From: a virus
IMG/VR virus record: IMGVR_UViG_3300044301_000103
Location: 1-21,146 of that record
DNA length: 21,146 nucleotides
Reading direction: 5' to 3' (one strand)
The notes beneath the pieces are model-generated. The model was given only the letters and a program-made list of their open reading frames with translations, had not been told where the DNA came from and did not search any database. Made by a program: the position numbers and the translations under genes. Below, in pieces: positions 17,779 through 21,146 of this stretch (position 1 is its first letter; each line of letters starts with the position of its first letter).

Positions 17779-18471
17779 ATGAAATTAATACTTGGAGATT
17801 GTTTAGATGAAATGTCAAAACTACCAGACAATTCAATAGATTTAATTATAACTAGCCCACCTTATGAGGATATAACTGGTGCAGGATATGTTGCAAAAAA
17901 TAAAGATGTGTTATTTTTAAAACTTTATTTAGAATTTTTAGATAAAGTGTTTACCGAGTATTACCGAATATTGAAAAACAACGGACAAATCTTTTTAAAC
18001 ATTAAGAGCAAAACGCTAAAAAAAAATTTGAGAACGCCACATTGGATTGAATTTTCTGAAAGTTTTCAAAAATTAAATTTTAAATCTTTTATTATTTGGA
18101 AGTATGCGGGTTCATTTGACAGCACAAAATCTAGGTTTCATTTAGATTATGAGATTATTTATCATTTATCAAAGGGTGATGATATTTATTTAAACCAGGA
18201 AACAGACATACACGATCCGCTATCAAGTGTTTGGTATGTGCCACACAATATAAAAAAAAGTGAAAGAGTGCATCCAACCCAAATGCCTACTGCTTTAGTA
18301 GAAAGAATTTTAAAAGTTGCATCAAAACCCAATGATACAGTTTTAGATAATTTTATGGGTAGTGGAACAACTGGCGTTGTATGTAAAGAACATAATTTAG
18401 ATTTTATTGGTATTGAAATAAATCCACAAAACTATGAACTATCAAAGAGAAGAATAAATGAACGATATTAA
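17779..18471 (+). CDS. DNA methyltransferase, beta class, probably N4-cytosine
   Basis: A 230-residue DNA methyltransferase. Motif order is catalytic first: TSPPY at 25-29 (motif IV), variable target-recognition region in the middle, HPTQMP at 165-170 (motif X), then FMGSGTTG at 192-199 (motif I, AdoMet binding) and GIEI at 211-214. This is the beta-class order. TSPPY is the form usual in N4-cytosine enzymes, while N6-adenine enzymes mostly have DPPY. No endonuclease partner is present, so it appears orphan: it may protect phage DNA from host restriction or time transcription. Spacing to the preceding gene is 17 bases with a weak ribosome binding site. Confidence 0.88.
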   Translation: MKLILGDCLDEMSKLPDNSIDLIITSPPYEDITGAGYVAKNKDVLFLKLYLEFLDKVFTEYYRILKNNGQIFLNIKSKTLKKNLRTPHWIEFSESFQKLNFKSFIIWKYAGSFDSTKSRFHLDYEIIYHLSKGDDIYLNQETDIHDPLSSVWYVPHNIKKSERVHPTQMPTALVERILKVASKPNDTVLDNFMGSGTTGVVCKEHNLDFIGIEINPQNYELSKRRINERY

Positions 18472-18901
18472 AGAACGTATAAAAGCACACGAAGGCTATA
18501 GGTTAGAGCCTTATCATTGTACCGAAGGACACCTTACTGGTGGCTGGGGTCATAAGATATTAGATGGTGAGGAAGTACCTAAATCTGAGGAAGGGTGGCA
18601 AAACCTATTTAATAACGACTTTGAAAAGGCGTTTAATGGGGCAAATTCGCTCATAGGAGAACATTTAGAGAACACTGAATGGTCGGAGCTACCTGAACCC
18701 AAAAAACACGCTATAACAGGCGTTTTAACGGAAATGTGTTTTCAGCTAGGACAAGCAGGAGTAGGCAAATTTAAGAAGATGTTTACTGCACTTGGCAAAT
18801 GCGACTTCAAAGAAGCTGCTGCACAGATGAGAGATTCACGCTGGAACAAACAAACTCCAGCTCGTTGCTTAGAACTAAGCGGCATTATCCAAAACTTATA
18901 A
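18458..18901 (+). CDS. Endolysin, GH24 (T4-type) lysozyme
   Basis: A 147-residue muramidase that cleaves host peptidoglycan at lysis. The N-terminus aligns with T4 lysozyme: E12-G13 in 'AHEGYRLEPYHCTEGHLTGG', with C21 where T4 has catalytic D20, and T27 at the position of T26. The spacing Glu-8-Cys-5-Thr is one of the known forms of the GH24 active site (Glu-8-Asp/Cys-5-Thr). The C-terminal half has the typical 'RWNKQTPARCLELSGII' segment. There is no signal peptide or SAR helix, so it should need a holin, and a holin candidate follows nine bases later. The gene overlaps the methyltransferase by 14 bases. Confidence 0.92.
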   Translation: MNDIKERIKAHEGYRLEPYHCTEGHLTGGWGHKILDGEEVPKSEEGWQNLFNNDFEKAFNGANSLIGEHLENTEWSELPEPKKHAITGVLTEMCFQLGQAGVGKFKKMFTALGKCDFKEAAAQMRDSRWNKQTPARCLELSGIIQNL

Positions 18902-18910
18902 GGAAATATT

Positions 18911-19303
18911 ATGTTACAAATGTTGATAAAACCTCTTTTAGGGGTTGCTGGTGATATGGTTAAAGGCGTAATAGAAACGAAGAAAGCCAAATCAGAAGCA
19001 AAACTTACAGAAATTAAAGCTGCTACTGCACTTAAAGAACAACAGATTGCAGGTAAAGTTTCTTGGGAAGCATCAGCAGTCAATCAGATGGAAGGATCGT
19101 GGAAGGACGAGGTAAGTTTAGTGGTGCTACTTTTACCTGCTGTTCTCGTATTTATTCCTGGTTGTCAAGAGTTTGTAAAAAGTGGGTTCATAGCTCTACA
19201 GGAGCTTCCTGAATATTACCAACACCTATTATACATTGCTATCTCAGCGTCATTTGGAATTAAGGGCGTAGGATCAGCAGCTAAAATGATTAAAAAGAAA
19301 TAA
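18911..19303 (+). CDS. Holin (3TM/GTA-type)
   Basis: A 130-residue membrane protein. An N-terminal amphipathic stretch (MLIKPLLGVAGDMVKGVIE) is followed by a Lys/Ala-rich helix and 'EGSWKDE' just before the first clear membrane helix (about 68-84, SLVVLLLPAVLVFIPG). A second membrane helix lies at about 105-121 (HLLYIAISASFGIKGVG), then a basic tail. This pattern fits the '3TM holin' family known from gene-transfer agents and marine phages. Position right after the lysozyme gene supports a role in releasing it through the inner membrane. AAGGA at 18900-18904 is the ribosome binding site. Confidence 0.75.
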   Translation: MLQMLIKPLLGVAGDMVKGVIETKKAKSEAKLTEIKAATALKEQQIAGKVSWEASAVNQMEGSWKDEVSLVVLLLPAVLVFIPGCQEFVKSGFIALQELPEYYQHLLYIAISASFGIKGVGSAAKMIKKK

Positions 19304-19309
19304 TTGTGA

Positions 19310-19552
19310 ATGTATTTCATAATTACCGCAATGCTATTCTTCAGTAGTTCTGAACAAGTTATTTATACACAATACGATAAAGCTACATTTGATTCCGTAC
19401 CTACTTGCCAAGAGTTTTTATTTCACAATAAAGTTCAACTCACATTAGACCTTTTTGATAACCATAATCAAAAGGGAGATATGAAAGGGTATGAGTTTTT
19501 TTGTGAAAGTCGATACTCGAGTGAACCAAAAAAACCAGGACAAGAGATATGA
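19310..19552 (+). CDS. Small protein with N-terminal export signal or anchor
   Basis: An 80-residue protein with a short hydrophobic start (MYFIITAMLFFSS) and a hydrophilic remainder holding two Cys (C33, C65), which could form a disulfide in the periplasm. The start lacks a basic n-region, so export is a prediction of moderate quality. It follows the holin by six bases, so a spanin-like or lysis-accessory role is possible, but there is no lipobox and no Pro-rich outer-spanin pattern. No family is recognised. It overlaps the next exported protein by four bases (ATGA). Confidence 0.55.
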   Translation: MYFIITAMLFFSSSEQVIYTQYDKATFDSVPTCQEFLFHNKVQLTLDLFDNHNQKGDMKGYEFFCESRYSSEPKKPGQEI

Positions 19553-20250
19553 AAAATATATTTATTATCGTATGCGTAACCATAGCAATGCTGTTTGTAT
19601 TTGGTGCATTGTTTGATAACGCAATGGCAGATGTTACTAATACAGGAGCCACGACAAACGATCAGGTAAACTCAACAGGGTCCAATACGGCTATCACGGG
19701 TGGATACGAAAGCACTTCTAGCACAACATATCAATCAGGCAGTTCATCTAACACCACAAGCACTTCTACAACAAACAACAATTCTTATACTGGCGATACA
19801 CGTACTGTACCATCAGCATCTGCTCCAGGAATATCAGCCATGTCGCAAGACCTTTGTACTGTGGGCGTTGGGATTGGAATACAGAAACCTTTAATAGGTG
19901 GAAGTATAGGTATCACAAAAAGAGATATGAATTGTGAAAGAATGAAATTATCTAAACTGCTTTTTGATTTTAATATGAAAGTTGCTGCAGTTAGTATTTT
20001 ATGTCAAGACGCAAGAGTTTTTTCTGCCATGGCTCACGCAGGAACTCCCTGCCCTTTCAACGGTAAAATAGGAGGAGATGCCCTAGACGAGTGGAATAAG
20101 TATGATGAACAAAGACCAGACTATGAGGAATATACAAAAGCTCTTAGATATATGGAGGAAGTAGATTCACAGATTACGGAGGCAATGGATGATAAGGAAG
20201 CCTATATTGTTGATGGCAATGGTAATCCTGTTCAACTCGGTAGCGAATAG
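19549..20250 (+). CDS. Exported Ser/Thr/Asn-rich protein with conserved 4-Cys domain
   Basis: A 233-residue protein started in an ATGA overlap. Residues 1-27 form a clear signal peptide (basic KN start, hydrophobic IIVCVTIAMLFVFGALF, cleavage site after AMA27). Residues ~28-98 are a low-complexity Ser/Thr/Asn linker. Residues ~100-175 are a compact domain with four Cys (C103, C129, C152, C168) and the segments 'NCERMKLSKLLFDFNMKVAA', 'CQDARVFSAMAHAGTPCP' and 'GKIG'. The tail is acidic. The domain looks like one seen repeatedly in marine phage genomes, but I know of no assigned function. It may be periplasmic, surface-exposed or virion-associated. Confidence 0.75.
   Translation: MKNIFIIVCVTIAMLFVFGALFDNAMADVTNTGATTNDQVNSTGSNTAITGGYESTSSTTYQSGSSSNTTSTSTTNNNSYTGDTRTVPSASAPGISAMSQDLCTVGVGIGIQKPLIGGSIGITKRDMNCERMKLSKLLFDFNMKVAAVSILCQDARVFSAMAHAGTPCPFNGKIGGDALDEWNKYDEQRPDYEEYTKALRYMEEVDSQITEAMDDKEAYIVDGNGNPVQLGSE
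20178..20182 (+). promoter_or_regulatory. Shine-Dalgarno fixing the start at 20189
   Basis: GGAGG lies six bases before the ATG at 20189, inside the end of the previous gene. It favours that ATG over in-frame ATGs at 20213 and 20219, and only the upstream start gives a complete signal peptide. Confidence 0.7.
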
Positions 20251-21146
20251 TGAAACTGTAACCCTTGAAGATACACCTCACGCAGGAGATACTACAGTAA
20301 TCGAAACTATTACAACAGGTAATCCTGTAGTCACTAATAATTTATTATCACAACAATGGAATGATGGTACTTGGACAGGAGATATGTTTCCTGACTCATC
20401 AGACATAAATGAAAACATTTATCTTACAGGCAAAGATGGTAAGTATGCAGAATCTACTGTAAACTCTCAAGACATTTTAACCGAACAAGAATTGCAACAA
20501 GGTTTAACTTCAACACTAACCGCTAAAGTACGCTGGTGGAATCAATGGGAAAGCACTATTGAGATGCGTCAAACTGCAACAAACGGTATTGATACAACTA
20601 CTCAAAGTATAATTTTACAAGATACAACTAATCATAATAATCAATTTAATTCTCATACTAATACTTTAGTTATTGCACCAGATGCAGAAAACTCACATGG
20701 CACATTAACTACAAGATTTACATTTGATATAGATAATGCTGCAGGTAATTGGAACAACGGCCACAGTGGACCAGATATTATACAACCCGATTTAAGACTT
20801 AGTTATTCTGCATTAAGCTCAACTACTGTTACTACAGTAACTCATTGCTACGAAAAGACACCACCTACTTGTCCTGGACAAGACGAACTAGCAGAAGTTG
20901 AAAACATAATAGACACCTTTGAAGATGATTTACAAGATTTATACTTTGAAGATTTGTATTATGAAGAACAAACATTCATACCAGAAACCATAGACTTTGA
21001 ATACTCATTCAATCCTGAAATCTTTGAGGAAGAAGATTTTAAAATGGAAGATGATTATTTAGCGTTTGATGATTTTTTTTTTGAAGAGCAGTTCTTTGAA
21101 GATGACTATTACGAAGAATTTGAGTTGGAAGAATACTTTCCAGCCT
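20189..21146 (+). CDS. Exported protein with acidic/aromatic tail, partial (runs off right edge)
   Basis: The frame stays open from 20189 to the end of the window (319 codons visible). It starts with a well-formed signal peptide, MIRKPILLMAMVILFNSVAN, with likely cleavage near residue 20-22. A beta-rich, Thr/Asn-rich region follows, including 'QQWNDGTWTGD' (about 55-65), 'LTAKVRWWNQWESTIEMRQ' and a Cys pair (C220, C228). From residue ~232 to the window end the sequence is almost only Asp, Glu, Phe and Tyr with a few Leu (for example DDFFFEEQFFEDDYYEE). It overlaps the previous exported gene by 62 bases, so the pair is probably co-expressed. No family is recognised. Surface, adhesin-like or metal-binding roles are conceivable. 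The 3' end is missing. Confidence 0.75.
   Translation, partial: MIRKPILLMAMVILFNSVANSETVTLEDTPHAGDTTVIETITTGNPVVTNNLLSQQWNDGTWTGDMFPDSSDINENIYLTGKDGKYAESTVNSQDILTEQELQQGLTSTLTAKVRWWNQWESTIEMRQTATNGIDTTTQSIILQDTTNHNNQFNSHTNTLVIAPDAENSHGTLTTRFTFDIDNAAGNWNNGHSGPDIIQPDLRLSYSALSSTTVTTVTHCYEKTPPTCPGQDELAEVENIIDTFEDDLQDLYFEDLYYEEQTFIPETIDFEYSFNPEIFEEEDFKMEDDYLAFDDFFFEEQFFEDDYYEEFELEEYFPA

Follow-up and report, generated by a model that had tools for sequence, protein, structure and literature searches.

The window, i.e., the whole 21,146-nt viral record IMGVR_UViG_3300044301_000103 (21.1 kb), closes at its 3' end with a lysozyme gene, a small holin-like membrane gene and three consecutive open reading frames, g1, g2 and g3, the last of which is cut by the window end. 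These frames overlap, as the original prediction had described; the overlap is 4 nt at the g1/g2 junction and 62 nt at the g2/g3 junction. In L007, a contig near-identical to the window, the complete g3 encodes 596 aa and is followed by a fourth gene, g4 (110 aa, L007 8415-8747). Beyond g4 lie two more genes, one for a phrog_20984 coiled-coil membrane protein of 124 aa and one for a protein of 73 aa. The features of the window are as follows.

18458..18901, + strand: endolysin (phage lysozyme), a context gene; Pfam Phage_lysozyme 32.7 bits, above the cut-off
18911..19303, + strand: small membrane protein, holin-like by position; phrog_2524 (no function assigned), PHROG match 5.8e-29
19310..19552, + strand: gene 1 (g1), 80 aa, two cysteines; weak signal-peptide score, adjacency to g2 not kept in relatives
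19549..20250, + strand: g2, 233 aa, predicted to be exported and carrying a four-cysteine domain; signal-peptide features, PHROG 20531 (no function assigned)
19549..19629, + strand: predicted g2 signal peptide, residues 1-27, cleaved between AMA and D (home-made score; helix 2-25 in the structure model)
19630..19824, + strand: g2 linker rich in Ser/Thr/Asn/Gly, residues 28-92; invariant N46, T47, I49, G51, G52 and Y53
19825..20133, + strand: g2 cysteine domain, residues 93-195; invariant C103, C129, C152 and C168
20189..20250, + strand: g2/g3 reading-frame overlap, 62 nt; the commonest arrangement, 49 loci
20189..21146, + strand: g3, predicted exported protein, 319 codons to the window end
20291..20842, + strand: predicted g3 beta-sandwich of carbohydrate-binding-module type, residues 35-218 (AlphaFold model, Foldseek against PDB)
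20954..21146, + strand: predicted acidic disordered stretch of g3, from residue 256 and continuing past the window (model and composition)

Upstream of the lysozyme lies a DNA methyltransferase-like gene (17779-18471), and a close relative of the window carries a different methyltransferase-like gene in the corresponding region (L017 3567-4337).

Export signals were assessed with a home-made score, not SignalP, which considers a charged N-region, a hydrophobic core and small residues at positions -3/-1. The original prediction ascribed hydrophobic, export-like starts to all three proteins and proposed signal-peptide prediction for each; by our score g2 and g3 carry convincing signal peptides, whereas g1 scores poorly, with no basic N-region, a short hydrophobic stretch and no Ala at -1. 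Cleavage is predicted between MKNIFIIVCVTIAMLFVFGALFDNAMA and DV in g2, which recovers the AMA site named earlier, and between MIRKPILLMAMVILFNSVA and NS in g3. None of the 20 other window genes tested reaches the score. Among relatives the signal-peptide features of g2 and g3 exceed chance by the same measure, being present at the N-termini of 164 of 169 g2 proteins, compared with 40 of 845 shuffled sequences, and of 153 of 155 g3 proteins, compared with 25 of 775. The hydrophobic start of g1 may instead belong to a small two-cysteine protein, as its first strand. Two-cysteine proteins of this kind, in which the first strand is hydrophobic, are found repeatedly near lysis genes in SAR11 phages (window 19310-19552; L007 9123-9344; L174 3324-3566 and 5000-5215).

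The conservation of the locus was analyzed in 160 IMG/VR contigs from two g2 scans and 11 annotated phage records. In 155 of 173 loci, g3 is the gene immediately downstream of g2. Among the other 18, 14 run into the contig end within ~600 nt of g2, and four, the Roseobacter and freshwater records, have different partner genes. Provided that g3 is complete and sequence remains beyond it, g4 comes next without exception (114/114 loci). The conserved unit is g2, g3 and the membrane gene g4, situated just outside the window, and the module is present in hundreds of ocean-virus sequences; as far as we searched, g2-g3-g4 has not been described as a unit. Conserved adjacency in viral metagenomes, another proposed check, held for g2-g3 and failed for g1, which is absent from the pattern and was rejected as a core exported member on account of its weak export score and its separation from g2 in relatives. 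An undescribed conserved exported system beside the lysis genes does exist, as had been claimed, although its composition differs from the three genes first named: its third member is a membrane coiled-coil protein past the window edge. Relatives neither lose the hydrophobic starts nor scatter the linked genes, two outcomes that had been named as refuting the prediction.

The isolates carrying g2 are the SAR11 phages Mosig, HTVC202P, Baldr, HTVC033P, HTVC023P and HTVC115P and, among Roseobacter phages, CRP-810 and CRP-207; g2 is also present in three uncultured genomes. As the isolated SAR11 carriers span podo-, sipho- and myo-like phages, the earlier statement that runs of secreted proteins are rare in short-tailed phages fails for SAR11 phages. 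Annotation of these loci is uneven. The g2 relative at L087 4887-5393 (MW202481) is not annotated as one gene, short opposite-strand frames having been called instead. Genes of 216 aa upstream of g2 (L083 6977-7621 and similar) are annotated PurM in HTVC023P, and 11 upstream neighbours of g2 match PHROG 3704 'ferredoxin', in disagreement with the PurM name.

No Pfam family was matched by g2, g3 or g4, and PHROG assigned a function to none of them, the sole match of g2, PHROG 20531, itself being without one. The cysteine domain of g2 is helical in the structure model, and a fold search of the g2 model against PDB gave no match. The beta-sandwich of g3 is modelled mostly at high confidence and, in Foldseek searches against PDB, resembles carbohydrate-binding modules (E-values between about 1e-4 and 2e-5, probability 1.00, target TM-scores of up to ~0.58), while the predicted acidic stretch comprises ~200 residues, of which 39% are Asp/Glu and 2% Lys/Arg, followed by a helical end. 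Hypervariability of the sandwich among close relatives was considered and found unsupported; replacement is seen only over larger distances. Alignment of g4 reveals a basic N-terminus, a single N-terminal membrane helix, a coiled coil whose length varies, and Asn-Pro-Leu near the C-terminus in every row (L007 g4 ends DNPLLN). A membrane protein with this motif was found in 111 of 115 SAR11-type loci, compared with 4 of 3671 background ORFs (about 0.1%). It occurs once per carrier genome in the phage genomes examined and is absent from HTVC200P, a phage without g2.

With respect to the lysis genes, the position of the module varies. Of the 85 loci with enough flank, 50 have an endolysin, a holin-like gene or both no more than a few kb away, and many relatives share with the window a small membrane gene of the holin-like kind upstream of g2; in Mosig, g2 is immediately preceded by a member of GTA_holin_3TM. 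The set of Votkovvirus S28C10 is flanked by a holin-like gene on one side and the terminases on the other. In HTVC200P, a phage of the same genus, the order is lysozyme, holin-like gene, phrog_20984-type coiled-coil membrane protein, 71-aa protein and terminases, and T7 encodes its spanins 18.5/18.7 between the holin and the large terminase, so that the S28C10 set occupies the place of both the HTVC200P coiled-coil protein and the T7 spanins. In Baldr and HTVC202P the set is found by the terminase, away from the endolysin, and in CRP-810 it comes after the tail-fibre genes.

In Baldr, in HTVC202P and in the 50 kb scanned of both HTVC033P and HTVC023P, a lipobox search that recovered the positive controls T7 18.7, lambda Rz1 and Bor detected no ORF for a lipoprotein. 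The annotated genes of HTVC200P, which lacks the set, likewise include no lipoprotein, so scarcity of lipoproteins may be common across these phages. A lipoprotein of 51-54 aa was nevertheless found in nine contigs; eight of these have it next to the set, where it immediately precedes g2, separates g2 from g3 or immediately follows g4.

To extend the analysis, a profile including distant g2 members (A10) was employed, which added 80 viral contigs together with 19 assigned to bacterial or archaeal genome bins, the latter probably being phage contigs. In 68 of these 99 distant loci, the gene after g2 is complete and encodes a hydrophobic N-terminus, and many of the others lie near contig ends. 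The partner genes usually overlap g2 by about 58-148 nt and belong to several unrelated types, about half of them with an acidic stretch. Downstream, a membrane protein ending in Asn-Pro-Leu/Ile was found in 45 of 63 distant loci with more than 3.5 kb of room, compared with 6 of 2474 background ORFs. Since distant loci keep g2 and a g4-like protein while swapping g3 for unrelated exported proteins, the constant parts are g2 and the g4 tip, with g3 exchangeable.

Further exported proteins stand between g3 and g4 in L179, L180, L182 and others. In the class formed by L180 (8536-11558), L179, L182, L183, L190, L265 and L275, up to five predicted exported proteins separate g2 from the Asn-Pro-Leu coiled coil, and in L180 a class-3 lipase gene comes after the run. 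A suspected likeness of the 304-aa distant partner in L180 to cyanophage proteins was dropped, as no match was found in 50,697 phage records. Two genes annotated 'lysozyme' / 'putative lysozyme', CRP-810 gp51 (L085 6207-6629) and CRP-207 gp73 (L086 3292-3873), encode membrane coiled-coil proteins ending in Asn-Pro-Leu, and a Pfam search of CRP-810 gp51 returned no lysozyme. CRP-810 gp53 (L085 4821-5576), annotated 'OmpA family protein', is related to g2 and has no OmpA hit in Pfam. Both names are probably wrong for members of the set.

Taking these observations together, we tentatively propose that g2, g3 and g4 constitute a periplasm-spanning complex that helps to disrupt the outer membrane at lysis, spanin-like and yet without the defining lipoprotein, a reading to which we give somewhat less than even weight. 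The three proteins would form a single periplasmic complex late in infection. In this complex, g4 would sit in the inner membrane, oriented as its basic N-terminus suggests, with its coiled coil crossing the periplasm and its Asn-Pro-Leu tip held by the cysteine domain of g2; this contact is proposed because both parts stay together even where g3 is exchanged. The g3 beta-sandwich could then reach glycans of the outer membrane or the wall. Once the endolysin has removed the peptidoglycan, the complex would join or tear the membranes so that the outer membrane opens, which is what spanins accomplish in other phages, and it would do so mostly without the usual outer-membrane lipoprotein.

The fixed gene order, the holin-like and endolysin genes nearby in over half of the informative loci, the position of the S28C10 set, the i-spanin layout of g4, its Asn-Pro-Leu end in carriers but not in HTVC200P, and the failure of the lipobox scan to reveal an ordinary spanin in four carrier genomes are consistent with this proposal, and the combination of an i-spanin-like g4 with an o-spanin-like lipoprotein in a minority of carriers favours a spanin-like role. 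Against it stand the loci of Baldr, HTVC202P and CRP-810, the lack of a lipoprotein in most carriers, its equal lack among the annotated genes of HTVC200P, which has no such set, and the presence in the window relatives of phrog_20984, another i-spanin-like protein, which could be their true i-spanin. A sugar-binding-type domain is, moreover, unexpected for a spanin and fits masking or recognition. Among the roles listed in the original prediction, help in lysis is the best supported, with superinfection exclusion or envelope remodelling as possible alternatives.

It is also possible, if rather doubtful, that the set represents a distinct and widespread class of phage envelope machine, in which the cysteine domain of g2 captures the Asn-Pro-Leu tip of the inner-membrane coiled coil g4 and couples to it an exchangeable exported head, g3, with no need of a lipoprotein. 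Such a head might open the outer membrane or act on surface glycans at the end of infection.

The main rival of the spanin-like proposal is glycan masking or superinfection exclusion by an exported, lectin-like g3 that is held by g2 and g4 and covers surface glycans, so that other phages are kept from adsorbing or released progeny are spared waste on debris. The modelled g3 sandwich, of sugar-binding type, and the replacement of the N-terminal g3 domain over larger distances while g2 is conserved would suit this role. We nonetheless regard masking as unlikely, considering that no route across the outer membrane is evident, that g4 is a predicted inner-membrane protein and that the g3 partner is not recognisably sugar-binding in many distant carriers. 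Less probable still is a role in regulating when lysis occurs or in regulating the host envelope, antiholin-like or through envelope stress or permeability, and not in the disruption of the outer membrane itself: the position beside a holin-like gene in many loci and the disulphide-type periplasmic domain would agree with it, but known antiholins need less than three large, invariantly linked components, and the set also occurs away from holins.

Similarly annotated genes are the commonest identifiable class in metaviromic islands and were read as host recognition genes (Mizuno et al., PMC3909814), which would favour a virion-associated adhesin, carried on the phage particle and aiding host recognition. 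A variable tip on a conserved base is also adhesin-like, and the CRP-810 location behind tail-fibre genes would fit. This explanation appears highly improbable, given that tailed phages assemble in the cytoplasm while >95% of g2 and g3 relatives bear signal-peptide features, and that g4 is a membrane protein; the suggested route of the products from the periplasm to the virion is not supported.

If the distinct-class reading is true, this set would be the means by which many SAR11 phages deal with the outer membrane at lysis. As a defined set with invariant residues, the four cysteines of g2 and the Asn-Pro-Leu of g4, it makes both the lysis role and the glycan-masking rival testable, and it offers leads for genes at present labelled hypothetical.

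Among known systems, the phage-borne curli or type VIII secretion genes of HTVC008M resemble the set in being exported proteins coded by SAR11 phages, and pelagiphages can carry CsgF/CsgG (PMC7029224, PMC9599517, PMC9004378). With HTVC008M as the positive control, the CsgG pore was detected in none of 30 g2-carrier records and CsgF in none of 10 carriers tested; HTVC008M, which has both, has no g2. Identity with curli was therefore rejected, and the two modules do not co-occur in this sample. The modelled g3 fold is comparable with the beta-sandwiches of the carbohydrate-binding modules CBM16, CBM4 and CBM22 and of the Fbs1 sugar-binding domain, from which g3 differs in having no sequence family match, its sugar binding being putative. 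Like g4, the phrog_20984 protein of the SAR11 phages HTVC200P, HTVC031P and HTVC019P combines a single membrane helix with a coiled coil and is encoded close to the lysis genes, and in HTVC200P it fills the place of g2-g4; it differs in lacking the Asn-Pro-Leu end and the g2/g3 partners, and it co-occurs with the set in the window relatives.

An o-spanin is an outer-membrane lipoprotein with a lipobox (PMC6139136), a feature not detected in the four carrier genomes, as far as scanned, and present in the minority of eight contigs. Likewise, a unimolecular spanin, which combines a lipobox and a C-terminal membrane helix in one protein, was not found in the four genomes, since the scan detected no lipoprotein there; no ordinary o- or u-spanin is thus seen there. 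Because the lipoprotein feature is mostly missing, the set is not a canonical spanin by membership. It differs from two-component spanins (lambda Rz/Rz1, T7 18.5/18.7) in its three components, its occasional distance from the endolysin, the large g3 with a sugar-binding-type domain and an acidic stretch, and the conserved Asn-Pro-Leu end of g4. It resembles them in the defining i-spanin feature, an N-terminal membrane helix followed by a periplasmic, often coiled-coil, domain, which alignment and hydrophobicity indicate for g4, with the orientation predicted from its basic N-terminus, as well as in its exported partner(s), its overlapping genes, its place in some carriers among the late genes, at their lysis or terminase end, and, in eight contigs, an adjoining tiny lipoprotein.
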